A DNA stretch of 29,169 nucleotides from a virus: positions 1 to 29,169 of the IMG/VR virus record IMGVR_UViG_3300008448_013271; one strand, written 5' to 3'. The number at the start of each line of letters is the position of its first letter. Positions within the stretch are counted from its first letter, which is position 1. Positions 3,389 through 23,374 of this stretch are shown in pieces. The translations under genes and the position numbers were made by a program. The notes below the pieces were generated by a model. The model saw only the letters and a list, made by a program, of their open reading frames with translations, made no database searches and was not told the DNA's origin.

Positions 3389-3906
3389 TGGGACGACGCG
3401 GACCAGCACCAACACCAACCGCCATCAAGAAGGCGCGCGGAGAAACGCGGCCGAGCCGGATCGGCAAGAAGGAGATCGCACCGAAGGCGGTCGCGCATCT
3501 CGAGGCGCCAGAGGATCTCAGCGATGACGCCAAGCCGATCTGGATCGCTGTCGTCGACGCCATCGGCCACACCGGGGTGATCACGGCAGTCGATGTCGAG
3601 GCGCTTCGCGCCTACGCAGAAAGCGTCGCCACCTACCGCAAGGCGGCCAACATCGTCGCGCGCGGTGGGCCGATCATCAAGGGACGCAACGGGGAACTCG
3701 TGCGCAACCCGGCAATCATCGTGATGAAACAGGCCGGCGAAGCGTCGCGCGCTTGGGCTCGCGAGCTCGGGCTAACGCCGGCGAGCCGAGTCGGTCTCGA
3801 GGCGGTCGCAAGCCAGGGGCAGCACGCCGGAGCCAACGCCAAGCTCGACGCGATCCTCGCGGGGGCTGACATCGCAGCGCAGCTCCGCGAGGGGAAGGCA
3901 CACTGA
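3388..3906 (+). CDS. terS: Terminase small subunit, P27 family
   Basis: DNA-recognition subunit of the packaging motor. The N-terminus GRRGPAPTPTAIKKARGETR and the later LSDDAKPIWIAVVDAI and TPASRVGLEAVA stretches are characteristic of P27-type small terminases. The 172-residue length is normal. TGATG overlap with the HExxH gene and with terL directly downstream show a packaging operon. The packaging site itself cannot be located from this sequence. Confidence 0.88.
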   Translation: MGRRGPAPTPTAIKKARGETRPSRIGKKEIAPKAVAHLEAPEDLSDDAKPIWIAVVDAIGHTGVITAVDVEALRAYAESVATYRKAANIVARGGPIIKGRNGELVRNPAIIVMKQAGEASRAWARELGLTPASRVGLEAVASQGQHAGANAKLDAILAGADIAAQLREGKAH

Positions 3907-5405
3907 TGGCCCGCCGCCCGAAGGCGGCGACGCCGACCCACGGACAGCTGGCGATCGAGTTCATCGAGGCGTTCTGCCGCGTCCCCAAGGGCGAGATGGC
4001 CGGGCAGCTCATGAAGCTCCTGCCCTACCAACGCGAACTCCTTGAGCAGGCGTTCGAGATCGGAGCCGGCGGCACTCGCCGCTACCGTCGCGCGTTCTGG
4101 GGGATGCCGCGCGGGTCCGGCAAGTCGGGCCTCGCGTCTTCGCTCGCCCTCTTCGGCCTCTTCGACCCGCTCCACGTCGGAGCCGAGGTGGTCGTCGGGG
4201 CAGGCGACCGGCAGCAGGCCAGGATCATCTTCGACGCCGCCCGCCGGATGATCGAGCTCGACCCGATCCTCAGCGAACGGCTGCGCGTCTACAAGACGGT
4301 CATTGAAGAGCCGACGCGGGGCGGCACCTTCCGGGTGCTCTCAGCCGACGCACCGCGGGCTGAGGGTCTCAGCCCGAGTCTCGCAATCGTCGACGAGGTT
4401 CACGTCCAGCCGAACGACGACCTCTGGTCGGTGCTCTCCCTCGGAACCAGCAAGCGCCGCAACTCGCTCATCCTCGGCATCACGACCGCGGGCAAGAAGA
4501 CCGACAGCCACGGACGCGACTCCCTCGCCTACCGGCTCTGGCAGCTCGGCAACCAGATCGCCGACGGCGAGCGGACCGACCTCACCGACTTCCACTTCCG
4601 ATGGTGGGGCGCCGGTCCGAAGGACGACCCGAAGTCGCCCGAGACGTGGAAGAAAGCCAACCCGGCCTACGACATCCTCGTCCCCGCCGACGCCTTCGCG
4701 GCCGACGCCGCCGGCGGCGTTCCCTGGGACGACTTCCTCACCCGCCGCCTCAACCTCTGGGTCAGCAGCAACGAGTCGTGGCTCCCGCGCGGCTCGTTCT
4801 CCGACTGCTACGCGCCGCGTCGCATCCAGCCGGGCGAGCCGATCGTCGTCGGGTTCGACGGCGCCTTCAACGGCGACTGCGTCGCCTTGGTCGGCGCGAC
4901 CCTCGACGGCCACATCGAGCCACTCGGGCTCTGGGAGCGACCGATCGACGACCCGGCATACCAGGCGCCGATCGAGGAGGTCGAGGCCGCGATCCGCGAC
5001 CTCTGCCGCACCTACGATGTCAAGGAGATCGCCGCCGACCCATACCGTTGGGCGCGGTCGCTCCAGATCCTCGAGGCCGAGGGGCTGCCGGTCGTTCACT
5101 TCCCTCAGAACACCACGCGCATGACCCCCGCGACTTCGGGCTTCCGAGACTCGGTCATCACCAAGGCGCTGACCTGGGGCGGCGACGACAAGCTCGCCGC
5201 TGCCCTTCGACGCCACATCGAGGCCGCCACGATCCGCACGGACCGTGAAGGTCGGCAGAAGATGGCCAAGGAAAGCCGCGCCTCGGGCCGCCGGATCGAC
5301 CTTGCCGTCGCTGCCGTGATGGCGCTGTCGCGCGCTCGGTGGTATGCTACCGAAGGGAACAAACCAGACGAGAAGCCGAAGGTCAAGTTCTTCAGCTTCG
5401 ACTAA
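3906..5405 (+). CDS. terL: Terminase large subunit
   Basis: ATP-driven DNA-packaging motor with a headful or site-specific nuclease. ATPase part: Walker A GMPRGSGKSG at 66-75, Walker B LAIVDEVH at 159-166 and coupling motif GITTAG at 191-196. RNase H-like nuclease part: D318 in VVGFDGAF, D378 in IAADPYRW and D465 in RRIDLAVAA. The full 499-residue length and intact motifs suggest a functional enzyme. ATG overlaps the terS stop region (ACTGATGG). It is followed by a 59-base gap containing an inverted repeat and a recurring intergenic motif. Confidence 0.95.
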   Translation: MARRPKAATPTHGQLAIEFIEAFCRVPKGEMAGQLMKLLPYQRELLEQAFEIGAGGTRRYRRAFWGMPRGSGKSGLASSLALFGLFDPLHVGAEVVVGAGDRQQARIIFDAARRMIELDPILSERLRVYKTVIEEPTRGGTFRVLSADAPRAEGLSPSLAIVDEVHVQPNDDLWSVLSLGTSKRRNSLILGITTAGKKTDSHGRDSLAYRLWQLGNQIADGERTDLTDFHFRWWGAGPKDDPKSPETWKKANPAYDILVPADAFAADAAGGVPWDDFLTRRLNLWVSSNESWLPRGSFSDCYAPRRIQPGEPIVVGFDGAFNGDCVALVGATLDGHIEPLGLWERPIDDPAYQAPIEEVEAAIRDLCRTYDVKEIAADPYRWARSLQILEAEGLPVVHFPQNTTRMTPATSGFRDSVITKALTWGGDDKLAAALRRHIEAATIRTDREGRQKMAKESRASGRRIDLAVAAVMALSRARWYATEGNKPDEKPKVKFFSFD

Positions 5406-5413
5406 GCCCGCGA

Positions 5414-5448
5414 CGAGCGGGACGCTCGGGCGATCTATCAGGAAGACC
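5414..5448 (+). promoter_or_regulatory. Hairpin plus recurring intergenic motif, copy 1
   Basis: CGAGCG-GGA-CGCTCG (5414-5428) can form a 6-bp hairpin, and an alternative CCCGC/GCGGG pairing overlaps it. GCGATCTATCAGGAAGACC follows at 5430-5448, then AAGGAGG before the ATG at 5465. The same hairpin-plus-GATCTAWCAGGAG arrangement recurs at three further gaps. Function unknown; an RNA processing or translation-control element is an inference. Confidence 0.5.
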
Positions 5449-5464
5449 CGCAAGGAGGATCGAC

Positions 5465-5608
5465 ATGCTCTCAAACGCGTTCGAGGTGGCGGGCATCGTT
5501 CTCATCACCATCGCAGCCTGGTCCGTCGACCCCAGGCTCGGCACCTTCGTCGCCGGCATCGGATGCCTGATCGTCGGCCTGGCACTGGATAGGAGCACCC
5601 GCAAGTGA
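5465..5608 (+). CDS. Small two-helix membrane protein
   Basis: A 47-residue protein with two hydrophobic segments (about residues 6-20 and 27-42) separated by a short polar turn, so probably a small inner-membrane hairpin protein. ATG at 5465 is preceded by a strong AAGGAGG. The stop TGA overlaps the portal GTG by 4 bases, coupling the two. A longer in-frame opening from 5339 lies within terL and has no ribosome binding site, so it was not used. Small membrane proteins between terL and portal occur in other phages, but no function is known. Confidence 0.7.
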   Translation: MLSNAFEVAGIVLITIAAWSVDPRLGTFVAGIGCLIVGLALDRSTRK

Positions 5609-6966
5609 GCATCATCCGCCGCGCCCTTGGGCTCGAGGCCGAGACCCGACTCTTCCAAAGCACCTCCCTCATCCCACGACCGGGCGAAGGCTACGTCGGC
5701 GAGGCCGGGTCCCCGGTCAACGTCCAGACCGCCACCAGCCTCACCGCCGTCTGGGCCGCCGTCGGCCTGGTCGCCGACACCATCGCGAGCCTTCCGGCTG
5801 ACGTCTACCTCCGCCGCGGCGCCGCGCGCATCCCGCTCCGCCCACGCCCGAGCTGGCTCGACATCCCGGTCCCAGCCGATCCGAACTTCACGACCTGGAA
5901 CCATTGGCATCAGGTCGCCCTCTCGCTACTGCTCCACGGAAACAGCTACACCTACGTCATCCGCAATCGTCGCGGCGAGGTGGTCGAGGTTCGCGTCCTC
6001 AACCCGGAGCGCGTCGCCCCGACGATGATCAAGGACCCGAAGACCGGCGAGGAGATCGTCGCCTTCCAGATCCGCGCCAACGAAGGCAAAGAGGTCATCC
6101 TCGGGCCGAACGAGATCATCCACATCAAGCGCTGGACCAACCCAGGCGAGATCGTCGGCCTCAGCCCAATCGAGGCGTGCCGCACCAGCCTCGGCGGCAC
6201 GATCGCAACCGAGCAGTTCGGCGCGCGATGGTTCCGCAACTCCGGCGTCCCGTCGGGCGTCATCCAGGTCCCCGGCGAACTCACCGAAGAGCAGGCGGCC
6301 GAGATCGTCGGCGGTTGGCGCCGACGCCACAGCGGCAGCAACACGCCCGGCATCCTCACCGGCGGCGCGACCTTCCAGCCAATCCAGGTCAAGCCGGCAG
6401 ACATCGCCTGGCTCGACGCCCGCAAGTTCGGCATCGACGAAGTCTCGCGCATCTTCCGCGTCCCAACGACCAAGCTCAGCGGCGAGACCGGCAACCGCAG
6501 CTACAACAGCATCGAGGCCGATCAGACCGCGTTCGTCGTCGACTCGATCCGCCCGTGGCTTGAGCTCATCGAGCGCAGCTACCAGCGCATCGTTCCCGGC
6601 GGCGCGGACTCGTTCATCAAGTTCAACGTCGACGGCCTACTTCGCGGCGACGCGAAAAGCCGGTCCGAGGCATACGCCACGGGCATCCGCGCCGGCTACA
6701 TGACGGTCGCCGACGTCCGCCGACTCGAGGACCTCGCGCCATTGGGCGACGAACTCCGACAGCCGCTTCGTGAGGTCAACCTCGCGCCTGCCGCGCTTGC
6801 CGATCAGAAGCTACGCGCCGACACGGCCGCCTCGCTGATCGCCGCCGGCTTCGCGCCGGACGACGCCGCAAAGGCCGCTGGCATCGACATCCGCGCACCA
6901 CGCGTCGCCGCCGCAGTCAGCGAGGACGAGCCGCAGGTCGAAGAAACAGAAGAGGAGAACAGCTAA
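5605..6966 (+). CDS. Portal protein, HK97 type
   Basis: Dodecameric ring at the head vertex through which DNA enters. The 453 residues show the HK97-type portal pattern: SLTAVWAAVGLVADTIASLP near the N-terminus, LLLHGNSYTYVIRN, IIHIKRWTNPGEIVGLSPIE, then FRNSGVPSGVIQVPG and a DEVSRIFRVPTTKLSG segment. The GTG start at 5605 overlaps the preceding stop. The C-terminus is an acidic tail. It is followed, unusually, not by the protease but by a fibre cassette. Confidence 0.93.
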   Translation: MSIIRRALGLEAETRLFQSTSLIPRPGEGYVGEAGSPVNVQTATSLTAVWAAVGLVADTIASLPADVYLRRGAARIPLRPRPSWLDIPVPADPNFTTWNHWHQVALSLLLHGNSYTYVIRNRRGEVVEVRVLNPERVAPTMIKDPKTGEEIVAFQIRANEGKEVILGPNEIIHIKRWTNPGEIVGLSPIEACRTSLGGTIATEQFGARWFRNSGVPSGVIQVPGELTEEQAAEIVGGWRRRHSGSNTPGILTGGATFQPIQVKPADIAWLDARKFGIDEVSRIFRVPTTKLSGETGNRSYNSIEADQTAFVVDSIRPWLELIERSYQRIVPGGADSFIKFNVDGLLRGDAKSRSEAYATGIRAGYMTVADVRRLEDLAPLGDELRQPLREVNLAPAALADQKLRADTAASLIAAGFAPDDAAKAAGIDIRAPRVAAAVSEDEPQVEETEEENS

Positions 6967-6968
6967 CC

Positions 6969-7229
6969 ATGGCAACCGTACTATCCTATACCGTCAGCAC
7001 TACTCCGGTTCAGATCATCGCGCCGGTCGCCTGGGAGACTCGATGGGCGATCATCAGCCCACGCAACAGCGCCGATGTTCACATCGGACCGACCTCGGCA
7101 GTGACATCCTCTTCCGCCGCCCTAATCAAGGATCAATACCTCGAGCTGCCAATCCACGCCAACGAAGAGCTCTGGGTCGTCGCCGCAAGCAGCACCCACG
7201 TCGTTGACGTGATCATCACGGAGAACTGA
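6969..7229 (+). CDS. Small beta-rich virion protein candidate
   Basis: An 86-residue protein without charged clusters or membrane segments. The pattern of beta strands with VHIGPTSAVTSSSAAL and EELWVVAASSTHVVDVII resembles small phage proteins often found beside fibre genes, in which a bound or displayed beta sandwich is assumed. GAGGAGAA lies upstream of the ATG. It is the first gene of the fibre cassette. No experimental function is known to me for this type. Confidence 0.6.
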   Translation: MATVLSYTVSTTPVQIIAPVAWETRWAIISPRNSADVHIGPTSAVTSSSAALIKDQYLELPIHANEELWVVAASSTHVVDVIITEN

Positions 7230-7232
7230 TCG

Positions 7233-7589
7233 ATGCCAGCAGCACGCTACGACGTCCAGATCGAGCAGGGTGCGACCTTCGCACTCGACCTCAGCTACAC
7301 CGACGCCGCCGGCGATCCGGTCGATCTAACTGGCTGGGAGGCGCACGCGCAGTTCCGGCCGGACTACACCGAGGCGCCCATCCTCTCCATCACCCATGAC
7401 GACTACATCACGCTGGGCGATGACGACGGCACGGTCGAGGTTCGCGTTCCCGCGGCCGTCACTGAGGATCTTCCGGCGCCGGTCGCCGGGGTCTACGACC
7501 TCACACTCACGAACGTCAGCACCGGCTTCGTCATCCGACTGGTCGCGGGGCTCTACACAGTAAGTCCGGCCGTCACCCGGGAGGCATAA
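7233..7589 (+). CDS. p132/LtfC-like beta-sandwich protein
   Basis: A 118-residue protein opening with YDVQIEQGATFALDLSYTD and a following GDPVDLTGWEAHAQFR, which matches the QG-x-TF...DLTG-x-x-A-x-x-Q-x-R signature of the LtfC/p132/gp6 beta-sandwich family. In phage T5, p132 is a collar protein at the neck that serves as a fibre attachment point. The location next to portal and fibre genes would suit a neck or collar adaptor. Family assignment rests on this signature; a generic Ig-like structural protein is the alternative. Confidence 0.6.
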   Translation: MPAARYDVQIEQGATFALDLSYTDAAGDPVDLTGWEAHAQFRPDYTEAPILSITHDDYITLGDDDGTVEVRVPAAVTEDLPAPVAGVYDLTLTNVSTGFVIRLVAGLYTVSPAVTREA

Positions 7590-7592
7590 CTC

Positions 7593-7883
7593 ATGCCGGT
7601 CAACGTCCAACAGGACGGCCGCGTCGTCATCAACCGACAGACGTCGACCGTCACCATCTCAACGGCGGGAACGCCTGGCGCGAGCCACGACACGTGGATC
7701 TACAACCAGACGACGCCGCTTGCCGTCTGGGAGTTCAACCATCCCTTCGAGGGCCACTATCCAAGCGTCACGATCACCGACCTCTCGGGCGTGATCGTCT
7801 ACGCTGCGGTTGAATACCCCTCCTCGCAATCTATCAGGGTCACCTTCCTCGCGCCCTTCGCTGGCAGGGCGCTCATCAACTAA
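7593..7883 (+). CDS. Fibre-tip-like beta domain protein
   Basis: A 96-residue protein. After VNVQQDGRVVINRQTSTVTI and a very short AGTPGAS turn, the rest (VWEFNHPFEGHYPSVTITD, VEYPSSQSIRVTF, APFAGRALIN) matches a domain common at the C-terminal tip of phage fibres, usually after a collagen-like GPQGPPG stretch. Here that stretch is nearly absent. The C-terminus of the 661-residue fibre (TTHNLN-like VVTHNLNTADVSV...) has the same plan, so the two look like distant paralogues. Likely a short fibre or fibre-associated protein. Confidence 0.6.
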   Translation: MPVNVQQDGRVVINRQTSTVTISTAGTPGASHDTWIYNQTTPLAVWEFNHPFEGHYPSVTITDLSGVIVYAAVEYPSSQSIRVTFLAPFAGRALIN

Positions 7884-7915
7884 TCCCCAGCGGCAGCAAG
7901 TAGGAGAACACGGCG

Positions 7916-9901
7916 ATGGCTATCAAGTTCCTCAATCACGTCTCACTCGAGGGAGCAGAGCTCCAGAAGGCGCGCGTCGAGTCGCTCGCCGAAGCGCCTA
8001 CGGCCGTTGCCGGTCGCATCTACTTCGACTCCGTCCTCGGCTACACCCGCGTCTACAGCGGGACCGAGTGGCTCCGCCTCGATGACGCTCAGGCCATCGC
8101 CGACGCCGCCGCCGCACAGGGCGACGCAACGCAGGCGCTCTCCGACGCCGCTGCCGCACAGTCGGCCGCCGATGCCGCACAGGGCGACGCGACCCAGGCG
8201 CTCTCCGATGCCGCCGCCGCGCAGTCAGCCGCCGACGCCGCACAGGGCGACGCGACCCAGGCTCTCAGCGACGCCGCCGCCGCACAGTCGGCCGCGGACG
8301 CCGCGCAGGGCGACGCAACCCAGGCACTAAGCGACGCGGCCGCCGCGCAGTCGGCAGCAGACGCTGCCCAGGGCGACGCCACTCAGGCGCTCTCCGACGC
8401 AGCCGCCGCACAGTCGGCCGCAGACGCCGCACAGGGCGACGCCACCCAGGCGCTCTCCGACGCAGCCGCCGCCCAGAGCGCAGCCGATGCCGCGCAGGGT
8501 GACGCGACCCAGGCGCTCTCCGACGCAGCCGCCGCACAGGGCGACGCGACCCAGGCACTCTCCGATGCCGCTGCCGCCCAGTCCGCAGCAGACGCCGCGC
8601 AGGGTGACGCGACCCAGGCGCTCTCCGACGCCGCCGCTGCTCAAAGCGCAGCCGACGCCGCCCAGGGCGATGCGACTCAGGCGCTCGCCGATGCCGCCAC
8701 CGCTCAGGGTGCGGCCGACGCAGCCCAGGCCGACGTCGACGCACTCGACACGCGCGTAGGCGCTCTTGAGACCGGCGTCAGCTGGAAGGAGTCAGTCCGC
8801 GCCACTACAACCGCAAACATCACCCTCAGCGGGGAGCAGTCAGTTGACGGCATCTACGTCGTCGACGGCGACCGCGTCCTCGTCAAGAACCAGACGGATG
8901 CCACGGAGAACGGGATCTACGTCGTCGTCGACGCCGCAGCCTGGACCCTTGCCGCCGACGCCGACACCTTCGCTAAGGTCCGCGGCGCTGCCGTCTTCGT
9001 CGAAGAGGGCCAGACGTACCAGAACCAGGTGTTCGTCCTGGCCTCGGACATCGACTCGCCTGCTCGACAGGTCGCCGACAGCACCGACAGCTACGTCTTC
9101 ACCGAAGGGGGCGAAAGCTCCTACGCGTTCCTATCAGAAATCGACGGAACCGGATCGAGCCAGATCAAGGTCGCCGGAACGGTCACCTCGACGGAGAACG
9201 TCGTTCTCGTCATGCGAACCTTCGGGTCCGATGGCAACTGGTACGTCGCCGAGAGCGCGGTCATCACGGCCGGCACCAACGTCGCAGTTGACGTCGACTT
9301 CTCCCCAGAGGATCTCGTTCCAGAGACCAGCGGATCGCTCGTCTTCGGACCGACCTTCCAGGCGCAAGGGTTCGACCTCAACATCAAGCTCGCAACGGCA
9401 ACCGCTGACACCGTCAGCTGGGTCCTCGCAGTCACCGACGAGACCGGACCAGAGGGCGAATACGCCTGGGTCAAGATGGCGGCGCTGTCCGACATCCAGG
9501 CCGGCCAGGGTCTCATCAAGGAGGGCGCGCAGTTGCGCGTCGCTCTTGACTACGCGACGATCGAGTTCAGCGGCTCTTCAATCCAGGTCATGGACGCCGG
9601 TATCACGGCGGCCAAGCTCGCAGAGAACGCGGTCGATCTTGAAACCAACGTCGTCACCGGCGTCCTTCCGGCGGCCAACGGCGGGGCGCTTCGCTACGCC
9701 GAGACCATCGGCGACAACGCCGCAAGCTCGTTCGTCGTGACCCACAACCTCAACACCGCCGACGTCTCAGTCACGGTGAAGGAGACGGCGACCGGCGACA
9801 TCGTGATCCCGGACGTCGAGATCACCAGCGTCGACTCGGTCACCGTCAGCTTCGCAGCAGTTCCAGGCACGGATACCTATCGAGTCATCGTCCTCGGATA
9901 A
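7916..9901 (+). CDS. Fibre protein with coiled-coil repeats
   Basis: A 661-residue fibre. Residues 1-60 (FLNHVSLEGAELQKARVESL, AGRIYFDSVLGYTRVYSG) match the virion-attachment head of many phage fibres. Residues 68-270 are ten copies of QGDATQALSDAAAAQSAADAA-type units, three heptads each, which predict a long trimeric coiled coil. Next comes a globular fibre domain (about 285-385; YVVDGDRVLVKNQTDATENG). A further beta region follows, and the tip VVTHNLNTADVSVTVKE resembles the previous gene product. Likely receptor-binding. The gene lies between portal and protease, so the fibre may sit on head or neck; that is inference. Confidence 0.85.
   Translation: MAIKFLNHVSLEGAELQKARVESLAEAPTAVAGRIYFDSVLGYTRVYSGTEWLRLDDAQAIADAAAAQGDATQALSDAAAAQSAADAAQGDATQALSDAAAAQSAADAAQGDATQALSDAAAAQSAADAAQGDATQALSDAAAAQSAADAAQGDATQALSDAAAAQSAADAAQGDATQALSDAAAAQSAADAAQGDATQALSDAAAAQGDATQALSDAAAAQSAADAAQGDATQALSDAAAAQSAADAAQGDATQALADAATAQGAADAAQADVDALDTRVGALETGVSWKESVRATTTANITLSGEQSVDGIYVVDGDRVLVKNQTDATENGIYVVVDAAAWTLAADADTFAKVRGAAVFVEEGQTYQNQVFVLASDIDSPARQVADSTDSYVFTEGGESSYAFLSEIDGTGSSQIKVAGTVTSTENVVLVMRTFGSDGNWYVAESAVITAGTNVAVDVDFSPEDLVPETSGSLVFGPTFQAQGFDLNIKLATATADTVSWVLAVTDETGPEGEYAWVKMAALSDIQAGQGLIKEGAQLRVALDYATIEFSGSSIQVMDAGITAAKLAENAVDLETNVVTGVLPAANGGALRYAETIGDNAASSFVVTHNLNTADVSVTVKETATGDIVIPDVEITSVDSVTVSFAAVPGTDTYRVIVLG
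8117..8725 (+). repeat. Ten tandem 63-bp coiled-coil repeats
   Basis: Inside the fibre gene, nine units of 21 codons and one short unit of 14 codons (8495-8536) follow one another. The amino acids are nearly identical, but the codons differ between units, including serine TCC versus AGC switches. The short unit lacks exactly one heptad, which keeps the coiled-coil register. Confidence 0.9.
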
Positions 9902-9912
9902 GGGGGTAGTTC

Positions 9913-10806
9913 ATGCCGAAGATCGTCGGCTCACTCCTCGACGCGGCGGGAGCGCCTCTGGCGCTCCCTGCCGAGTCGTTGGTTGACGTCCAAGAGTTCC
10001 ACAGCTCAGGCACCTGGACCAAGCCGGCCGGCGTCACAGCCGCCTACGTTCTTGTAGTCGGCGGCGGCGGCGGCGGGCAGTCCGGCGGCGGACCAGGCAC
10101 CGGCACGGGCAACCGCTCTGCCGGCGGGGGCGGCAACGGAGGCGGCGTCGCTTGGCGGGTCTTCCCGGCATCGCAACTCTCATCCGAGGTCGTCGTCACG
10201 ATCGGCGCCGGCGGCGCAGGTGGCGGCTCAGTCGCTACCCCCGCTACGACGCAGTCCAGCGGCGGCAACGGCAACCCGACAACCTTCGGAGCCTATCTCC
10301 AGGCGACCGGCGGTCCGGGCGCGACCGGCAGCTCTACGCTGTTCACGGTTGGGCGCCTCGGCGTGACCCTCAGCAGCGCCACCAACTTTAGCTCGGACGG
10401 CCGAGGCACGGGCTCGACAACGGGCGCCACATCCGGCGCGGCGGGCGGCCGAGGGTTCTACGGACCAGGCGGCGGCGGGGCCGGCGGCAGTTCTTCAACC
10501 ACCAACATCCAGACCGGCGGCGCGGGTGGCGGCGGCTTCGGCCGCGAGACCGGCGCGACCGGATCAACAACGCCGGGCGTCGCAGGCACGGATGCCACCA
10601 ACATCGGCGACGGTGGCGGCGGCGGAACGGGCCCGACGACAAGCGGCACCGGCTCCGGGGTCGCTGGCTCGAAGGGCGGCAACGGCTACGCGGGCGGCGG
10701 CGGCGGGGGCGGCGGCGCAGGGCGCTACGTCTCCGCGGGTGAAATCTACAGCTCCGGAGCAGGCGGGGACGGGGGCAACGGCTACGTCCAGGTGATCTCA
10801 TGGTAG
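9913..10806 (+). CDS. Glycine-rich adhesin
   Basis: A 297-residue protein. Residues 25-55 (FHSSGTWTKPAGVTAAYVLVVGG) are the typical lead-in of phage glycine-rich tip proteins. The remainder is dominated by GGGGG, GAGGAGGG and similar runs separated by short polar stretches, ending in GGNGYVQVISW. Such sequences build polyglycine-II-type packed helices in fibre-tip adhesins of the S16 gp38 kind, where the variable loops bind the receptor. It immediately follows the fibre gene (AAGGGGG ribosome site) and probably forms the tip on that fibre. Confidence 0.75.
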   Translation: MPKIVGSLLDAAGAPLALPAESLVDVQEFHSSGTWTKPAGVTAAYVLVVGGGGGGQSGGGPGTGTGNRSAGGGGNGGGVAWRVFPASQLSSEVVVTIGAGGAGGGSVATPATTQSSGGNGNPTTFGAYLQATGGPGATGSSTLFTVGRLGVTLSSATNFSSDGRGTGSTTGATSGAAGGRGFYGPGGGGAGGSSSTTNIQTGGAGGGGFGRETGATGSTTPGVAGTDATNIGDGGGGGTGPTTSGTGSGVAGSKGGNGYAGGGGGGGGAGRYVSAGEIYSSGAGGDGGNGYVQVISW

Positions 10807-10982
10807 GTCGTTGGGCCGTGGTCTCTCAATCCGGCGCAGTCGAGACGGTGATCGTCTGGGACGGCGTCGCCGCGTTCTCGCCCTGCCACGAAACCGACCA
10901 GCTCGTCCAGTGCGAGCCGGCGGTCTCCGCGGGCTGGACATACACCGCCGGAGAGTTCATCGCGCCGGCCGAGGAGGCATAG
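10800..10982 (+). CDS. Small fibre-associated protein
   Basis: A 60-residue protein. The pattern WAVVSQSGAVETVIVWDGV, then GWTYTAGEFIAPAEE, resembles short proteins found next to tail-fibre genes and the ends of some fibres (AVI..G.V.NVIVWDG ... GWTYDGTNF.P). It overlaps the adhesin gene by 7 bases in another frame, and its TAG overlaps the next GTG by one base. It may be a fibre assembly or tip accessory. Function not established. Confidence 0.6.
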   Translation: MVGRWAVVSQSGAVETVIVWDGVAAFSPCHETDQLVQCEPAVSAGWTYTAGEFIAPAEEA

Positions 10983-12559
10983 TGCCCTACTCCATCAAGA
11001 CCGACCACCCCGACTGCGAGTCAGGCTACGCGGTCATCAAGGACGAAACGGGCGAACTCATCCCCGGCGGCTGCCACACGACAAAGGCCGAGGCCGAGGA
11101 TCAGATCACCGCGATCAACATCAGCGAAGCCACTCGTCAAGACGGCTATACGCCGACCGAGGGGATGAAGGAAGAGGCCGAGCGCGGCCTCGCCTGGCGC
11201 CGGGAGTTCGGGCGCGGCGGCACGCTGATCGGCGTCGCCCGAGCGCGCGACATCATCAACGGCGCCGAGCTTCCGCTCGAGACCGTCGTCCGCATGCGCA
11301 GCTACTTCGCCCGCCACGAGGTCGACAAGCAGGGTCAGGGATGGTCTCCGGATCAGGACGGCTATCCGTCCGCCGGGCGCATCGCCTGGGCGCTATGGGG
11401 GGGAGACCCAGGCCGAACCTGGGCCAACGCCATCGTCGAGGCGGCGCAGGACGACGACCAGGGGCGATCTATCATTGAGGAGATCGAACTCCATCACGAG
11501 ATCGAACGCCGGGCTCGACTCGACTACGGAACCCGAAAGGTCGGGCATCGCGTTGAGGTCCACGGGCTCCGACGCCTCGCCGACTACGAGGCACTCCGCA
11601 ACGGGGACCCGCAGGCAAACTGGCAAGACGCGGACCTGCTCCCCGTCGGCCACCCACGACGAACAGAGGAGACCACACCGATGGCCCGAACGAAAGAAGT
11701 CCGAACAGCACCGATCGCCGAGTTCGAAGTCCGCGAGACCGAGACCGGCGGACTCCGCTTCAGCGGCTACGCCGCACTCTTCGACACCCCGAGCCAGCCG
11801 CTCCCGTTCATCGAGACCATCGCGCCGGGCGCCTTCGCCCGCACCCTCGGTCGCGCTTCCAAGGGCCAGGCAGTCGTCAAGCTGCTCCACGGCCACAACT
11901 CCGACGAGATGCTCGCTGCCACCCCGACCAGCCTTGAGCTGAGCGAGGACGAGCGCGGACTCAAGGTCGCCGCCGAGATCATCGACAGCCCACTGGGTCA
12001 GCACGTCGCCGCTCTCGTTCGCCGCGATCCTCAGGCCGTCTCGATGTCCTTCGGCTTCCGCGTTCCTAAGAACGGCGAGCGCTGGGACGGCAACAACCGC
12101 ACCATCACCCAAGCCGACCTCGCCGAGGTCAGCATCCTGACCGGCCACAGCCCGGCCTACGCTGAGACCACCGGTCTCGCTTCCGTTCGCTCCTACACCT
12201 CACTCGCTGAGAAGCTCGGCGTTGATGCCGAGACCCTCGCCGCCGCCTTCGGGGCAGCCGCGATGGGCAACGAGTTGAGCGCCGAAGACGCCGACCTCCT
12301 CGCCGCCGCCGCCAAGGCGCTGCGCGTGGACGCGGTCGCCGAGGCGCTTGACGAGGCCGCAGAGGCACTCGACGAGGCAGCGGAGAAGATCGAGGAGGCC
12401 GCCGAGATGGTGGCCGAGGCCAAGCCGGAAGGCGAGGAAACCCCGGTCGAAGAGGCTCCGGTCGAAGAGATGCCGGCAGAAGAGGTCGACGCAGTCGAGG
12501 ACAAGTCCCCGGCCGCCCGTGCGCTTCTGGCGGAAATCACCCGTCGCCGGGCTATCTAA
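10982..12559 (+). CDS. Prohead protease with extra N-terminal module
   Basis: A 525-residue protein. Residues 1-55 (YSIKTDHPDCESGYAVIKDE, PGGCHTTKAEAEDQI) and 60-150 (RGLAWRREFGRGG, RHEVDKQGQG, GRIAWALWGGDPG) are modules seen in other phage head proteins. From residue 234 follows a Caudovirus prohead protease (S78 type): FSGYAALFDTPS, catalytic histidine H303 in LLHGHNS, serine S354 or S356 in AVSMSFGF. The end is an alanine/glutamate-rich coiled coil that could act as scaffold. The GTG at 10982 follows GAGGAGG. An in-frame ATG at 11681 with AGAGGAGA upstream would give the 292-residue protease alone. A longer opening from 10811 overlaps the previous gene and was rejected. Confidence 0.87.
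   Translation: MPYSIKTDHPDCESGYAVIKDETGELIPGGCHTTKAEAEDQITAINISEATRQDGYTPTEGMKEEAERGLAWRREFGRGGTLIGVARARDIINGAELPLETVVRMRSYFARHEVDKQGQGWSPDQDGYPSAGRIAWALWGGDPGRTWANAIVEAAQDDDQGRSIIEEIELHHEIERRARLDYGTRKVGHRVEVHGLRRLADYEALRNGDPQANWQDADLLPVGHPRRTEETTPMARTKEVRTAPIAEFEVRETETGGLRFSGYAALFDTPSQPLPFIETIAPGAFARTLGRASKGQAVVKLLHGHNSDEMLAATPTSLELSEDERGLKVAAEIIDSPLGQHVAALVRRDPQAVSMSFGFRVPKNGERWDGNNRTITQADLAEVSILTGHSPAYAETTGLASVRSYTSLAEKLGVDAETLAAAFGAAAMGNELSAEDADLLAAAAKALRVDAVAEALDEAAEALDEAAEKIEEAAEMVAEAKPEGEETPVEEAPVEEMPAEEVDAVEDKSPAARALLAEITRRRAI
11665..11683 (+). promoter_or_regulatory. Internal ribosome binding site and start for short protease
   Basis: AGAGGAGA at 11665-11672 lies 8 bases before an in-frame ATG (11681-11683). 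The product would begin MARTKEVRT, exactly where the protease domain starts. The preceding residues (HPRRTEETTP) look like translated spacer. Two products from one frame are likely but not proven. Confidence 0.5.
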
Positions 12560-12566
12560 CAGGAGC
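12540..12566 (+). promoter_or_regulatory. Recurring intergenic motif, copy 2
   Basis: A weak hairpin CCCG-TCGC-CGGG (12540-12551) leads into GCTATCTAACAGGAGC (12551-12566), which spans the protease stop codon. It is 90 bases ahead of the major capsid ATG at 12656. The rest of the gap holds no clear terminator; AAGGAGAA precedes the capsid start. This is the least exact copy of the motif. Confidence 0.4.
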
Positions 12567-12655
12567 GAAACGGCACCGGCCGTCGGCACCGAGCGCAACG
12601 CGCTACGCCCCGATCAGCGGCACGCCCCGGTCTCGCAGGTAAGGAGAAACACACG

Positions 12656-13963
12656 ATGAGCAACATCGAGCAGCGCAAGGCAGAGCACGCCGCTCTTCTC
12701 GATCAGGCTGAGGCGGTCGTCGTCACAGCGATCGAGGAAGGCCGAGAGCTCACCGAGGCTGAGACCAACAAGGTCGACGAGACACTCGCCAAGAGCGAAG
12801 TCGTCGCCGCCGACATCAAGCAGGAGACAGAAATCATGGAAAGCCGCAACGAAGCCGCCGAGGCTCGCGTCGAAGAGGTCGCTCGACCTGAAATCGTCGT
12901 GACCCGCGCCGAGCTCCCATACAAGCCACAGGGTGGCCCAAGCTACTTCCGAGACATGATCGACGCCAAGAACGGCGACAGCGAAGCGCGAGAGCGCCTC
13001 ACCGTCAACGAGCGCGCAGCCGAGACCCGCGACGGGTCGACCGGCTCGAGCTCCTTCGGCTCGTTCATCGCCCCAGTCTACTTGATCGACGAAGCCGCCG
13101 CGCTTGCGCGCTCCGGCCGACCGTTCGCCGACGCCCTTCCTAAGGGCGGCGCTCCGACCGGAACGACGATCTCGATCCCACGCATCACGACCGGTTCGTC
13201 GGTTGCCGCCCAGAACGGCGACAACGGAAGCGTCGCTGAGCAGGATCTTGCCGCAACGTCCTATGACATCAGCGTCAAGACGATCGCCGGACAGGTTGAC
13301 ACGTCCGTCCAGAGCCTCGAGCTCGCCAACGGCGCAGCAATCGACCGCATCATCTTCGCTGACCTCGCAGCTGCCGCTGCGCTCGAACTCGACCGACAGC
13401 TCCTCAACGGCGCTGGCGCGAACGGCGAGCTCATCGGTCTCCGCGGGATTACGGGCCTCAACGAAGTCACCTACACCGACGGCACGCCGACGGCGGGTGA
13501 GTTCTTCAGCAAGCTCGCGGCCGCAGTTGCCGAGTGCCACGCCGACCGCAAGGTTGCGCCAACGGCAATCGTCATGCACCCACGACGCTGGGCCTGGCTG
13601 CTCGGTTCGACCGACAACAGCAACCGCCCATTGATCACCCCGGTCGCCCCACAGAACGGCCTCGGCACCTTCGCCAACGTGGCAGAAGGCGTCGCCGGCT
13701 CGCTCCTCGGGCTCCCCGTTCTTCTCGACGCCAACGTCCTCACGGACCGCGGTGCCGGCGCGAACGAGGACGAGGTGTTCGTCATCCGCGCTCAGGACCA
13801 CATCCTCTTCGAGGGTCCGCTCCGCACCCGCGTGCTGAGCGAGGTCGGCTCGGGCAACCTGACGGTTCGCTTCCAGGCGTACCAGCACGCTGCCTACGCC
13901 GGTGGCCGATACCCGAAGGGCATCGTCCGCGTCCACGGCACGGGTCTCGTCAATCCGTTCTGA
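12656..13963 (+). CDS. Major capsid protein, HK97 fold
   Basis: Main shell protein, 435 residues. Residues 1-100 are charged and helical (HAALLDQAEAVVVTAIEEG, then KSEVVAADIKQETEI) and correspond to the delta domain that acts as internal scaffold and is cut by the protease. The fold core follows: SSFGSFIAPVYLIDEAAALA, TTISIPRITTGS, GQVDTSVQSLELANGAAID, LNGAGANGELIGLRG, VMHPRRWAWLL and HILFEGPLRTRVL. No separate scaffold gene is seen, consistent with delta-domain assembly. AAGGAGAA precedes the ATG. The cleavage site is not assigned. Confidence 0.95.
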   Translation: MSNIEQRKAEHAALLDQAEAVVVTAIEEGRELTEAETNKVDETLAKSEVVAADIKQETEIMESRNEAAEARVEEVARPEIVVTRAELPYKPQGGPSYFRDMIDAKNGDSEARERLTVNERAAETRDGSTGSSSFGSFIAPVYLIDEAAALARSGRPFADALPKGGAPTGTTISIPRITTGSSVAAQNGDNGSVAEQDLAATSYDISVKTIAGQVDTSVQSLELANGAAIDRIIFADLAAAAALELDRQLLNGAGANGELIGLRGITGLNEVTYTDGTPTAGEFFSKLAAAVAECHADRKVAPTAIVMHPRRWAWLLGSTDNSNRPLITPVAPQNGLGTFANVAEGVAGSLLGLPVLLDANVLTDRGAGANEDEVFVIRAQDHILFEGPLRTRVLSEVGSGNLTVRFQAYQHAAYAGGRYPKGIVRVHGTGLVNPF

Positions 13964-13978
13964 TCAGCTGAGCTGATC
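13962..13978 (+). repeat. Perfect 17-base palindrome at the capsid stop
   Basis: GATCAGCT-G-AGCTGATC overlaps the end of the capsid TGA. It may form a small RNA hairpin or be a protein-binding site. The bases after it, GATCTAAGCAG, partly match the motif seen after hairpins in other gaps. Confidence 0.6.
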
Positions 13979-13989
13979 TAAGCAGCGAA

Positions 13990-14021
13990 GAGGGGCGGGA
14001 GTCGAAAGGCTCTCGCCCCTC
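13990..14021 (+). terminator. Strong hairpin after major capsid gene
   Basis: GAGGGGCGGGAG (13990-14001) pairs with CTCTCGCCCCTC (14010-14021), giving a 12-bp stem with one G-U pair and an 8-base loop TCGAAAGG. No T-tract follows, so it is not a classical intrinsic terminator. It may be a partial terminator, an mRNA 3' end stabiliser or a processing site that raises capsid mRNA over downstream genes. Confidence 0.6.
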
Positions 14022-14040
14022 AACGCGACAGGGGGTCAAC

Positions 14041-14265
14041 ATGTCGAAAGCAACCATCGCCGCACTTCTCCGCGAGCGCGAGAGCTATCTCCGCCGTGGA
14101 CTCACCAAGCGCGTCGCCGACGTCGACGCGTCTCTCGCCGCACTCGGCTACCGAACGCCAACCGAGGACGCCGTCCTTCACGCACAGCCGATCGAGACCG
14201 CCGAAGTTGAGCGCCCGATCGAGACTGCCATCAAGCGCATCGTCAAGAAGTCCAAGAGGGGATAA
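14041..14265 (+). CDS. Small basic protein between capsid and connector
   Basis: A 74-residue protein with an N-terminal helix pair (IAALLRERESYLRRGLTKRV, ADVDASLAALGY) and a lysine-rich end (KRIVKKSKRG). Short proteins with the same RERExYLxRGL start occur directly after capsid genes in actinobacterial phages. Their function is unknown. AGGGGG precedes the ATG, after the strong hairpin. Confidence 0.7.
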   Translation: MSKATIAALLRERESYLRRGLTKRVADVDASLAALGYRTPTEDAVLHAQPIETAEVERPIETAIKRIVKKSKRG

Positions 14266-14268
14266 CCC

Positions 14269-14901
14269 ATGGCCATCATCTACGGTCTCGTCTCGCTTCA
14301 GGAAGTCAAAGCCGCGCTCGGCATCTCGCCGACCGACACCGCGTCCGACGCCGAGCTCGAGGGCGTGATCGAGGCCAGCTCCCGACTCATCGAGCGCCAC
14401 TGCGGGCGCATCTTCCGCAGCGTCGCCGAGGTGCGCCGCTTCACTGCGACCGATAACTATGAGGTCCAGATCGACGACCTCCACGAGGTCATCTATGTCC
14501 GCACCGACGATGACGGCGACGGCGTCGCCGAGGAGACATGGGCCTCGACCGACTACGAGCTTCTGCCGGTCAACCGAGCGGTTGCCGCCGCCGGCGAACT
14601 CCAGCCGTGGACTCAGATCGTCGTCCCATCCTGGGGCACGCGCGTCTTCCCCGCCGGACTCCTCAAGGGCGTCGCGATCAACGGCCGCTGGGGCTTCGTC
14701 CAGAACGATCTCACCACCCCAGAGCCGGTTCGTCAGGCCGCGCTCATCCAGGCACAGCTGATCTTCAAGGCCAAAGACGCGCCGTTCGGCGTGGTCGCCA
14801 CGGGCATCGACGGCAACGTCATCCGGATGAGCTCACGCCTCCACCCAGAGGCCAGCCTCCTCCTCGAGCCGTACCGCAAGCGCTCTGGGCTCGCCTACTG
14901 A
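14269..14901 (+). CDS. Head-tail connector, HK97 gp6-like
   Basis: Adaptor ring that joins the portal to the tail. The 210 residues open with SLQEVKAALGISPTD, then SDAELEGVIEASSRLIERHC, the helical pattern of gp6/gp15-type connectors; the later LKGVAINGRWGF and EPVRQAALIQAQLIFKAKDA complete it. Position directly after the capsid genes agrees. Its TGA overlaps the next ATG by one base. Confidence 0.8.
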   Translation: MAIIYGLVSLQEVKAALGISPTDTASDAELEGVIEASSRLIERHCGRIFRSVAEVRRFTATDNYEVQIDDLHEVIYVRTDDDGDGVAEETWASTDYELLPVNRAVAAAGELQPWTQIVVPSWGTRVFPAGLLKGVAINGRWGFVQNDLTTPEPVRQAALIQAQLIFKAKDAPFGVVATGIDGNVIRMSSRLHPEASLLLEPYRKRSGLAY

Positions 14902-19883: not shown

Positions 19884-22094
19884 ATGGCGAGCAGTTGGCT
19901 CAACGGAGTCGTGCCCAGGCAGCAGCCGTATTCGCTGCGCATCCAGGGCATGTGGCGCGGGCTTGACCTCATGGTCAGTCGAGCCTCGCGCAGCTCCGCC
20001 GTGCGCGACTACGCGCCATCGGTGATCCCCAGCAGCATCAGCCTCGACTCATCCGCCGACGACCTCGGCGGCACGCTGACCTTCGAGGTGCTCCAGGACA
20101 AGACCCCCGCCCAGGGTCCGTGGTGGTCGCGCGACCTACTCCCGGACAACGCGCTGATCACCTTCTCGCAGAACCGCTCGGTCGACGGGACCTATGCCCC
20201 CCAGACTCGGCTGTTCACCGGGTTCGTCGACAACATCGACGCCCGACTCTTGGGCGGCGGCACGGGCTCGTTGGCTACGGTGACCTGCGTCTCACTCACC
20301 TCGATCCTCGACCGGATCCTCGTCCGCAAGGTCGCTGACAGGCGAACCGGTCTCGCCCTCTCCAAGGCGGTCATCAAGACCGGCACGGACCGGGACCAGA
20401 TCCGAGAGATCCTGGCCATCGCCGGCGGCCGGCGCCGCGTCGGCAACGCGACCATCTTCAACCCGACCAACATCGCCCTGGTCGAAGAAACGGCCACCAA
20501 CCTCCCGCAGCTCGAGATCCAGCTCGGCACCCTCCGGCAGGCGCTCGAGGCCGTCTGCGAGTCGGCTCAGAACAAGGACGGCAAGCGGCGCCACTTCTAC
20601 CTCGACAGCCGAACCGGCAAGCTGGTCTACGGGTTCGCCGATGCCTCCGAGGTCACCTACGCCGATGCCCCGCTCGAGTTGGTCACCGACCCGGCAGACC
20701 AGGAGCTTGACGCGCCGGTCGACTTCGGCCACGACGAGTGGCTCCGCAGCTCGGGCCGCCTTGCCCTCTACCTCAATCCGCTCAACACGGGCAACGGGAC
20801 CGTCCGCAACACCGGCGCCCGCAACGTCGCGATCCAGGAGAGCGTGCTGATCTCCGGCACCGGGCTCTTCACCCCGAGCTTCGTCCCCAAGCCGATCACC
20901 TCCGAGGCCAACAGCAACGCCATCGTTCTCCGCTCCGCCCAGACCGACAGCGGCGGCACGATCGGTACCAACTCCGCCCGCTACTTCCGGACGCCGTCGA
21001 AGGGGTCGTTGGTCGGCTCCAAGTTCACGCTCTCGGGATGGTTCCGCAACAACACCGAGGACCAGGCGACGCAGCCGGCGACCGGCAACTCCTACTACTT
21101 CATCGACTCGATGGTCGGCGCCTCGGGCTTCGGCATCCGCCTCGAGGACGTCACCGGCGTGGTCCCGCCGGTCATCCCGCCGACCCGCTTCATGCGCGTC
21201 CACCTGGCACGCGCCGGGGTCAACGTCATCTCGTCCAGCGCGGGCGGCATCGTCAACGGCGCCTGGCACCACATCGCCGCTACCTTCGACGGCACCACCG
21301 CGAAACTCTTCGTCGACGGCGCCCTCGTCGGGTCGGCCGCTTGGGCGCCGATCAATCCAGACACCGAGATCCGCATCGGCGCGATGCTCGGCGTCACCGA
21401 TGCGTTCCCCGGTGCCTACGCCCATCTCGCGATCCACAGCGAGGCGCTGACCGACGGCGAAATCCAGGGCCTCTACAACGCCGGCAGTTGGACCCGCGCC
21501 ACTTCCAAGATCATCCCGCGGGACCTCTTCGTCGGCACGGACCACAGCCGCGTGGTCAAGCGGGTCTTCGTCCTCGCCGCCGACACCTCGGCCGACAAGG
21601 ATGAGGACGCCGACCCATACATGCGCGACTACGCCGCTGTCCTCAACGAGGCCGGCACCGCAACGGCCTACGCCAAGCGATCCGCCTCGATCGTCTTCGA
21701 GGACGTCCTCGAGGCCCCCTACATCCGCACCCGTCAAACCGCCGCGCGGAAGACCCGCATCGACCGCGCTGCGCGGTCCTTCTTCGGCGAGCGCCGACGG
21801 CCGGAGCAGTCGGTCACGGCAACGATCCGCGGCGCCTCCGACACCCAGGCGTGGTGGGCCTACGGCTTCAACTCCGGCTGGCGACAGTCCGGCTCGACCT
21901 ACTCCTTCGTACGCGAGGGATGGCGACCAGGGCAGTGGGTCAAGGTCGACGCGCCGGCGCTCGGCCTGGTCGGCCTCTACCGCATCGCCTCGGTCTCGAT
22001 GAGCCTTGAGCCGAACTCCCTAATCCGCCGCTTCGACCTCGAGCTCGACGCACGCCCGCGCTACCGCATCGGCCGCCTGGCGGCGATGGACTGA
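19884..22094 (+). CDS. Tail-tip protein with LamG-like domain
   Basis: A 736-residue protein. Residues 1-320 and 545-736 are beta-rich and look like one tail-tip/hub scaffold (VIPSSISLDSSADDLGGTL, FTGFVDNIDARLLG, late YRIASVSMSLEPNSLIRRFD). Between them, about 330-535, lies a LamG/concanavalin-like jelly roll: KFTLSGWFRN, WHHIAATFDGTTAKLFVDGA, EIRIGAMLG, AHLAIHSEALTDGEIQGLYN. Such domains bind glycans, so this one probably helps host-surface recognition. The start has a weak ribosome site (GAGGCCGCC) 13 bases after the previous stop. Confidence 0.8.
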   Translation: MASSWLNGVVPRQQPYSLRIQGMWRGLDLMVSRASRSSAVRDYAPSVIPSSISLDSSADDLGGTLTFEVLQDKTPAQGPWWSRDLLPDNALITFSQNRSVDGTYAPQTRLFTGFVDNIDARLLGGGTGSLATVTCVSLTSILDRILVRKVADRRTGLALSKAVIKTGTDRDQIREILAIAGGRRRVGNATIFNPTNIALVEETATNLPQLEIQLGTLRQALEAVCESAQNKDGKRRHFYLDSRTGKLVYGFADASEVTYADAPLELVTDPADQELDAPVDFGHDEWLRSSGRLALYLNPLNTGNGTVRNTGARNVAIQESVLISGTGLFTPSFVPKPITSEANSNAIVLRSAQTDSGGTIGTNSARYFRTPSKGSLVGSKFTLSGWFRNNTEDQATQPATGNSYYFIDSMVGASGFGIRLEDVTGVVPPVIPPTRFMRVHLARAGVNVISSSAGGIVNGAWHHIAATFDGTTAKLFVDGALVGSAAWAPINPDTEIRIGAMLGVTDAFPGAYAHLAIHSEALTDGEIQGLYNAGSWTRATSKIIPRDLFVGTDHSRVVKRVFVLAADTSADKDEDADPYMRDYAAVLNEAGTATAYAKRSASIVFEDVLEAPYIRTRQTAARKTRIDRAARSFFGERRRPEQSVTATIRGASDTQAWWAYGFNSGWRQSGSTYSFVREGWRPGQWVKVDAPALGLVGLYRIASVSMSLEPNSLIRRFDLELDARPRYRIGRLAAMD

Positions 22095-22096
22095 CC

Positions 22097-23374
22097 ATGA
22101 GCAAGATCGGCGTCTCCTCGGGATCCCTGGCCTCCTCAACCGGTGCCGTCGTCGACGAGCTTGGTCAGCTGCTCATCGGCACCGACACGACCGGCGGAGA
22201 GGCGCAGGCGATCGGTCCATCGCTCCGCCGAGAGCTTCTCACCGGGTTCGCCAACGGAGACTGGTCCTCGGCGCCGCAGAGCCGTGGCAACGTCACCGAA
22301 GAGTCGAACCCGCTTCCCTTCTGGACTCGCGGCAGCACCGACGCCACAGCCGGCACGCTCCCGGTCGAAGAGCGGGTGACTATTGAGGTCATCGAGAATA
22401 GCTCCGCCGCCTCCGGGAACGAGCTCAGGTTTACGATTACTAAAGACGCAGTTGCCACAAAAGAGTACTTCGTCTCGCGCTACATCCCGGTGGTCGGCAG
22501 CCGCGCCCGGTCGTTCACCTACGAGCCGCGGGCGCACGTCGTTGGATCGAGCGGGGCCTCGGCCGCAAACATCGACGCCTACATCCGAGCCTACTACGTC
22601 AACGCCGCGCTGGTCGCTACGGGCACGACTGCGACCAACTCCCCGGTCCTCACCGCTATCGACCGAGAGATCCAGGCGCTCCCGAACGGCGGCGCCCAGC
22701 TGCCGTCCGACGCCGCGTTCCTCTACGTCGAGATCGGGGTCCTGATCAACGGCGCAATCACGACCACCGAGACGATGACCGTCCCTGAGGCGCGGCTCGA
22801 CGTCGGCGGCATCCAGCTCCTGCTCACCGACCAGAACGCCGCAGACCCAACGCGGGGCGGCGCCTACATCGCCTCCGGTCAGCTCTACCTCTCGGCCGAC
22901 GCCAACGACGGCGTTGGCGGCGATCCGGCCATCATCCTCGACACGGCCAGCGATCGCTACTACATGGACGCCAAGCCGGTCGCGGGCCGCGCCACCGGTC
23001 CGGCGACGACGACCCTCACCGGAGCCGCGACCCTTCTCGATCTTGATGCGTCCTCGGAGTCGGGCGTATACCGATCAGGCGACACGATGGTCGCGCAGTT
23101 CGCCGGGTTCTACCTCATCACCGCGCGGGTCTCCTTCCAGTCGTCCGGTGCCGGCACCTACCGCCGCATCTTCGTCCGCAACAACGGCACGACCATCGCC
23201 ACCGCCCAGGACGCAATCTCGACAGCGGCAATCTCTCACAACATCAACGTCGCGACCCAGCTCAACCTGGCCGCCAACGACGCGATCGACGTCCAGGGGC
23301 AGCAGAACAGCGGCGGAAACCTGACCGCCACCGTCCTCGAACTCACGGTCACTCGACTCGGAAACTCGATCTAA
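22097..23374 (+). CDS. Tail protein with C1q/TNF-like end
   Basis: A 425-residue protein. A short N-terminal part (LASSTGAVVDELGQLLIG) is followed by a beta-sandwich region (about 55-240) resembling carbohydrate-binding jelly rolls. The last 120 residues (TLLDLDASSESGVYRSGD, FAGFYLITARVSFQSSGAGT, RRIFVRNNGTTIATA, LNLAANDAIDVQG) fit a trimeric C1q/TNF-like jelly roll, found in phage fibre tips. Coupled to the tail-tip gene (2 bases between). Likely a receptor-binding or tip protein. Confidence 0.72.
   Translation: MSKIGVSSGSLASSTGAVVDELGQLLIGTDTTGGEAQAIGPSLRRELLTGFANGDWSSAPQSRGNVTEESNPLPFWTRGSTDATAGTLPVEERVTIEVIENSSAASGNELRFTITKDAVATKEYFVSRYIPVVGSRARSFTYEPRAHVVGSSGASAANIDAYIRAYYVNAALVATGTTATNSPVLTAIDREIQALPNGGAQLPSDAAFLYVEIGVLINGAITTTETMTVPEARLDVGGIQLLLTDQNAADPTRGGAYIASGQLYLSADANDGVGGDPAIILDTASDRYYMDAKPVAGRATGPATTTLTGAATLLDLDASSESGVYRSGDTMVAQFAGFYLITARVSFQSSGAGTYRRIFVRNNGTTIATAQDAISTAAISHNINVATQLNLAANDAIDVQGQQNSGGNLTATVLELTVTRLGNSI

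Follow-up and report, generated by a model that had tools for sequence, protein, structure and literature searches.

The window, that is, the whole analysed stretch of 29,169 bases (IMG/VR record IMGVR_UViG_3300008448_013271), contains a head operon of the HK97 type. The terL gene (3906–5405) and the portal gene (5605–6966; PF04860, E 9.5e-77) are followed by the prohead protease gene, which begins with a GTG at position 10982 (PF04586, E 1.9e-28), by the capsid protein gene (12656–13963) on the 3' side of the protease, and by a head–tail adaptor gene (14269–14901). Between portal and protease lie six plus-strand open reading frames, separated by gaps of 2–32 bases or joined by short overlaps, and a consensus scan of 5300–14100 for promoters and terminators on the plus strand returned none. 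The initial annotation described these six genes as a fibre cassette inside the head operon. The position, 6969–10982, is correct, but the cassette comprises five genes, as 6969–7229 has no fibre feature. That this interval houses a fibre module is very probable.

The first of the six genes (6969–7229, plus strand) encodes A86, a jelly-roll head-operon protein of 86 aa, which was characterised by means of a 22-sequence family alignment, an AF2 model and fibre-less relatives. No Pfam or PHROGs family matches it, and almost all of the viral proteins that it does match are uncharacterised. A homologue occupies the same position in relatives with about 40% portal identity, and the gene is kept between portal and protease in about 30 relatives lacking the cassette. 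It is the only gene there in 20 of the 39 loci with a complete portal–protease interval and is found beside other genes in more. Because relatives without fibres retain it, A86 was no longer counted with the cassette; it is a permanent gene of the head operon that neighbours the cassette, not a fibre gene. Its model (pLDDT 80) resembles a cupin- or Ena-pilin-like beta sandwich (spore-appendage subunits) at Z scores of about 10 against the PDB. These neighbours (cupins, spore-appendage subunits and PirA) were taken to reflect a common fold only. In L008 (1400–2107) and L046 (5987–6694), A86 is replaced by a 235-aa protein that looks like an A86 domain with a large insertion (phrog_5335).

The cassette proper opens with the gene of a free-standing 118-aa protein of the p132/LtfC type with a predicted Ig fold (7233–7589, plus strand), a putative fibre socket. 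The earlier identification holds, with matches to phrog_1084 (E 7.5e-21) and to phrog_3304, "L-shaped tail fiber protein assembly" (E 4e-7). A family profile of ten relatives finds the p132 proteins of T5 (7qg9_R, E 1.6e-5) and DT57C (8hqz_Q, E 3.8e-6), as well as a structural protein of KPP25 (E 4e-13), and the ten-sequence alignment offered no conserved block for a degenerate-pattern scan. Pfam family PF23926 does not reach E 1 with the window protein, and in the fusion protein of L102, treated below, it scores 2e-5, under its cut-off. The Ig fold was recognised on the model of a homologous fused domain, which resembles p132 at Z 12; such fused domains align with the window family at an hhalign E of 5.6e-18. 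The fibre gene begins 327 nt downstream of this gene, whose product is likely to be a p132-type socket for that fibre.

The next gene (7593–7883, plus strand) specifies C96, a small protein that consists largely of a beta tip domain; the initial annotation is corrected here in that this gene represents a stand-alone tip domain. It matches R5C gp39 (E 5e-11), a protein of Mvi-JY20 (E 6e-11), RcSalem gp10 (E 2e-9) and phrog_30556 (E 1.5e-14). The fibre itself (661 aa; 7916–9901, plus strand), likewise predicted at the outset, consists of an N-terminal module, a heptad rod of about 230 aa, a conserved mid domain and a tip domain. It agrees with a trimeric coiled-coil pattern of N-terminal anchor, heptad rod and C-terminal domain, the trimer state being putative. 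The anchor module (aa 1–58; 7916–8089), delimited by homology to other fibre N-termini, is presumably the portion held by the socket; it is homologous to that of GMA4 (E 5e-5) and to those of L093 (E 2e-10) and L102 (E 2e-8), two of the neck-fusion phages described below. The alanine-rich rod (aa 57–285; 8084–8764) contains a 63-bp DNA repeat equal to 21 aa, or three heptads (TRF arrays at 8104–8740), and in an alignment with the relative L005 its length changes only by steps of 7 aa, i.e. whole heptads. The mid or "SWK" domain (aa 285–378; 8768–9049), which often reads SWKxSVR, matches phrog_11518 (4e-26). This domain and the C-terminal tip domain (aa 585–661; 9668–9898) align in the same order with residues 29–108 and 161–242 of PDB chain 9nx3_A. 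The tip domain is common to cassette fibres, with E values from 1e-16 to 5e-5.

The fourth cassette gene (9913–10806, plus strand) encodes a glycine-rich, adhesin-like protein of 297 aa. The glycine-rich protein of the initial annotation was confirmed, with matches to PF21722 (E 1e-4, just under the cut-off) and phrog_863, tail fiber assembly (E 5.6e-21); in L102, a PF21722 protein (E 1.3e-18) also lies 3' of the cassette. The end of this gene is overlapped by that of a 60-aa protein (10800–10982, plus strand; phrog_14370, E 3.5e-7). Two tail-tip proteins had also been proposed for this phage. The one with a LamG domain was recovered (19884–22094; PF13385, E 6e-17), and for the supposedly C1q-like one no C1q match was found in 22097–23374.

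Cassette proteins are 88–95% identical in close relatives, and dN/dS relative to L005 is 0.087 for the p132-like protein, 0.112 for C96 and 0.086 for the portal. As these values are close to that of the portal and the rod changes only in 7-aa steps, the cassette is maintained. One alternative holds that it is recent cargo, expressed but remaining outside the virion, or already decaying. Its movement between phages and genome positions would suit this explanation, which is nevertheless highly improbable in view of the purifying selection in close relatives, the whole-heptad changes in rod length and the finding by mass spectrometry of a homologue, P-SS2 gp074, in virions, albeit with two peptides only (PMC2784084).

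The gene order recurs elsewhere. The sequence of socket, tip protein and fibre is clear in Microcystis phage Mvi-JY20 and in the L089–L102 group. It is probable in Dinoroseobacter phage R5C, where the genes lie directly 3' of the portal and the p132 match is weak (E 3e-5). Pairs of tip protein and fibre, with a gene of similar size upstream, occur in Gordonia phages Yvonnetastic and GMA4 and in Rhodobacter phage RcSalem; the p132 match of the upstream gene is weak in Yvonnetastic gp54 and absent or too weak in RcSalem gp9 and GMA4 Orf64. The RcSalem pair (gp10–11; L133, 8854–10249) is flanked by genes for DNA polymerase and ribonucleotide reductase and lies at a distance from all known structural genes. 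Of 39 fibre loci retrieved via nothing but the mid and C-terminal part of the fibre, a p132-like gene or domain lies at most 800 nt upstream in 24. Control loci came from screening bacterial genomes with the portal, which brought up nothing but distant prophages, chiefly of Firmicutes; none of these 113 distantly related portal loci, in which the portal usually abuts the protease, contains p132, the tip protein or the fibre. Purifying selection in close relatives, together with a gene order that recurs in unrelated phages, implies that the cassette is more than a chance assembly. The fibre cassette as such is firm, and it is best explained as a horizontally transferred module that occupies an exchangeable position among the head genes. 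The same mobility makes gene position a weak guide to the place of attachment, so the original argument that fibre genes located here belong to the head or neck carries little weight.

A second alternative, suggested by the head-operon location, is that the module decorates the capsid, binding to its shell or vertices, perhaps via A86. Database names seem to favour it: phrog_2647 is labelled "head decoration", and the SWK and tip domains align with PDB entry 9nx3, "Capsid decoration protein", both matches being at the level of the name. These labels were rejected as independent evidence. The name "head decoration" probably originates from P-SS2 gp074. This decoration protein was named from a match to gpH of the lambdoid tail collar/fibre, and its gene stands among fibre genes, beside and just before that of the tape measure (PMC2784084). 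The C-terminal 82 residues of 9nx3 are the C-terminus of a 1151-aa protein of Bxz1-like phages, encoded beside minor tail genes. A86, the conceivable link to the capsid, also occurs where there are no fibre genes at all. Capsid decoration is unlikely, and the label "head decoration", which for these fibres rests on name transfer, should be used with caution. The SWK domain is common to the window fibre and those of P-SS2 (gp074), Mvi-JY20, GMA4 and Yvonnetastic, the last three of which also share the tip domain. All four differ from the window in genome position, and the "head decoration" label remains putative for them. The p132 member gives no more than a weak match in Yvonnetastic and GMA4, and next to P-SS2 gp074 no such gene was detected.

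An indirect indication of the attachment site comes from phages in which the socket is part of a larger protein. In L089, L092, L093, L094 and L102, p132 forms the C-terminal part of a protein of 349–440 aa, which is followed by the tip protein and the fibre. In the group that comprises L089–L102 and L141–L219, the fusion gene lies two genes after the capsid gene. A scan with the N-terminal 240 residues of the fusion returned 80 loci; a p132 domain at E<1e-3 is present in 67 of the 77 proteins scored, and many of these are directly followed by tip protein and fibre. The AF2 model of one fusion (352 aa, pLDDT 77) shows two parts joined by a disordered linker (195–245). Residues 242–351 find T5 p132 (Z 12.1, 2.6 A over 107 residues) and DT57C p132 (Z 12.2) as their best PDB matches. 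For residues 20–91, the top matches are chains from the neck of DT57C (Z 10.5, 1.4 A over 68 residues) and neck chains in the portal complex of T5 (Z 10.1), followed by the LME-1 portal–tail complex and the Mycofy1 head-to-tail interface, and longer segments match the VP1 portal–tail complex (residues 2–194, Z 8.1) and the T4 neck protein gp13 (residues 1–207, Z 8.1). The fold of the N-terminal 72-residue beta domain also occurs in the tailspike 7rfo_B (Z 9.0), and the helical part matches less strongly (Z 8.1). Judged by modelled fold and gene position, the N-terminus of the fusion is predicted to be a neck adaptor. Since the fibres of the fusion group carry the same anchor module as the window fibre (E 2e-10), the fusion supports attachment at the neck. 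In the window, the p132-like protein is a separate polypeptide and no p132 domain was detected in the adaptor gene (14269–14901); these two points and the tailspike match count against the neck.

A further indication is provided by sister phages, in which the portal–protease interval contains a Gp80 protein (PF23140, E 3.5e-22; phrog_240, "head protein") and a rope-like protein with 5–6 repeats of exactly 21 aa. The ropes always come after Gp80 (L024, 4568–5275; L029, 5303–6124; L039, 3475–4230), have a conserved acidic C-terminus and gave no PDB or family match. Solved relatives of Gp80 include 8jou_a (10 chains, E 2.6e-8) and, more weakly, 9mt4_I (E 0.0015), from a PDB entry titled as the connector structure of phage Bas63. 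The arrangement is reminiscent of Gp80 "fiber I" (PF23140) of podophage GP4; the bead-and-rope analogy draws on what structural work on GP4 reportedly showed and on the repeat pattern seen here. Its proteins are unrelated to those of the window, a bead with a rope of 21-aa repeats taking the place of a socket with a coiled-coil fibre, and the genes at 6969–12559 contain no PF23140 match. The presence of two unrelated fibre systems in one head-operon interval suggests that the slot serves fibres working from the head or neck.

T5 itself points to another location, as its p132 surrounds the tail tip as a dodecameric collar (PMC10038345). The fibres of the window may accordingly be side tail fibres of the T5 type, held by a p132-like collar at the tail tip, their genes having landed in the head operon by recombination. 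Among solved homologues whose place in the virion is known, the p132 proteins of T5 and DT57C are the nearest, and both sit at the tail tip. Phages phiHAP-1 and ACP17 have their p132-like genes amid those for tail fibres, and in pelagiphage Mosig such a gene belongs to a tail-fibre cluster; many PHROG matches of the fibre parts are also labelled as tail. These gene positions, like that of the pair among the replication genes of RcSalem, count against the neck. On the other side, the fusion of p132 to a putative neck adaptor and the second, unrelated fibre system in the same slot count against a tail-tip collar, and T5 p132 requires a special p140 ring. In Streptomyces phages Wakanda and Faust, the p132-like gene is located between capsid and adaptor genes (the adaptors of the Streptomyces phages have an N-terminal beta domain that does not match the p132 profile). 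We consider the tail tip improbable as the site in this phage, though less so than the capsid. The Streptomyces positions were counted for the neck, as was cyanophage DSL-LC02, whose p132–fibre block abuts the Ad2 and Hc2 neck genes. It is in this neck-gene neighbourhood that T4 has its whisker gene.

Ranked ahead of the tail tip and the capsid, the best single reading is that the cassette is a neck-attached fibre module on a p132 socket, and we infer this attachment with about even confidence. The initial proposal that a p132-type adaptor mounts the fibres on the neck or head thus gains comparative support from the adaptor fusion, the shared anchor and the second fibre system in the slot, and stays inferential. 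According to this model, about twelve copies of the p132-like protein would form a ring at the head–tail joint, around the portal or adaptor, and hold trimeric fibres by their N-terminal anchors. With about 229 residues, or about 34 nm if it is one continuous helix, the heptad rod would carry the mid and tip domains outward, and the glycine-rich protein would probably cap or join the fibre and bind the host as its tip. Neck fibres would then be present on the virion besides the LamG protein at the tail tip, possibly to make a first contact with the cell that is weak and reversible.

Among known systems, the p132 (LtfC) collar and L-shaped tail fibre of T5 and DT57C correspond most directly, in that a socket of the Ig-fold p132 family is encoded beside a long fibre. 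The window differs from them in having these genes in the head operon rather than among tail or fibre genes, in the extra tip-domain protein between socket and fibre, and in the probable neck site. The fibritin (wac) whiskers of T4 and the neck fibres of Anabaena phage A-1(L) offer a functional likeness, as both radiate from the head–tail joint. In A-1(L), a ring at the neck bears five such fibres (PMC10966104). Its proteins are different ones, gp82, gp81 and gp80 mounted on a 15-fold gp5 ring, and a p132-type socket has not been described for it. In the marine siphophage R4C, an Ig-like domain of the dodecameric neck adaptor lies outside the capsid (PMC10276861), which was also counted for the neck. 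This domain resembles the p132-domain model at Z 8.6, a likeness at fold level only, given that antibody-type Ig folds reach about 7.5. It is N-terminal rather than C-terminal, and the relevant passages describe no fibre on it (PMC10276861).

A broader interpretation is conceivable, although we hold it somewhat more tentatively than the neck reading itself: p132 may be a general fibre plug used on different virion rings, one at the tail tip in T5 and one at the neck in both this phage and the adaptor-fusion phages, and the portal–protease interval would be a site where two unrelated systems of neck fibres are exchanged. If this is true, one small Ig protein lets phages shift host-binding fibres between tail tip and neck. 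It would also explain fibre genes in head operons and give the question of neck-fibre function a concrete target. The comparison further indicates in which gene neighbourhoods receptor-binding proteins can be sought when the host of a phage is uncultured.

Some other features of these genomes may be mentioned. Between the capsid protein and head–tail adaptor genes, several loci have one to four glycosyltransferase-like genes (L009, 6349–8186; L015, 5971–8541; L024, 8937–12101; L030, 8458–9771), and in L011 and L043 a TAGT glycosyltransferase (PF20691, E 4e-31) is encoded between A86 and the protease. The prohead protease of the window (10982–11700) has an additional N-terminal part of about 240 aa, with phrog_2859 matching residues 15–159; a domain similar to this part is a separate open reading frame in L032 (3616–3948). 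Upstream of the terminase, translations read by eye suggest a ParB-like/DNA methyltransferase gene (82–1317), a small gene and a SAM synthetase (MetK-like) gene (1679–2812), which are perhaps linked to phage DNA modification. Finally, the 294-aa protein encoded at 23432–24316, possibly a lysin, reads as a peptidase domain of the C39 type with a long linker of KPEP repeats behind it.
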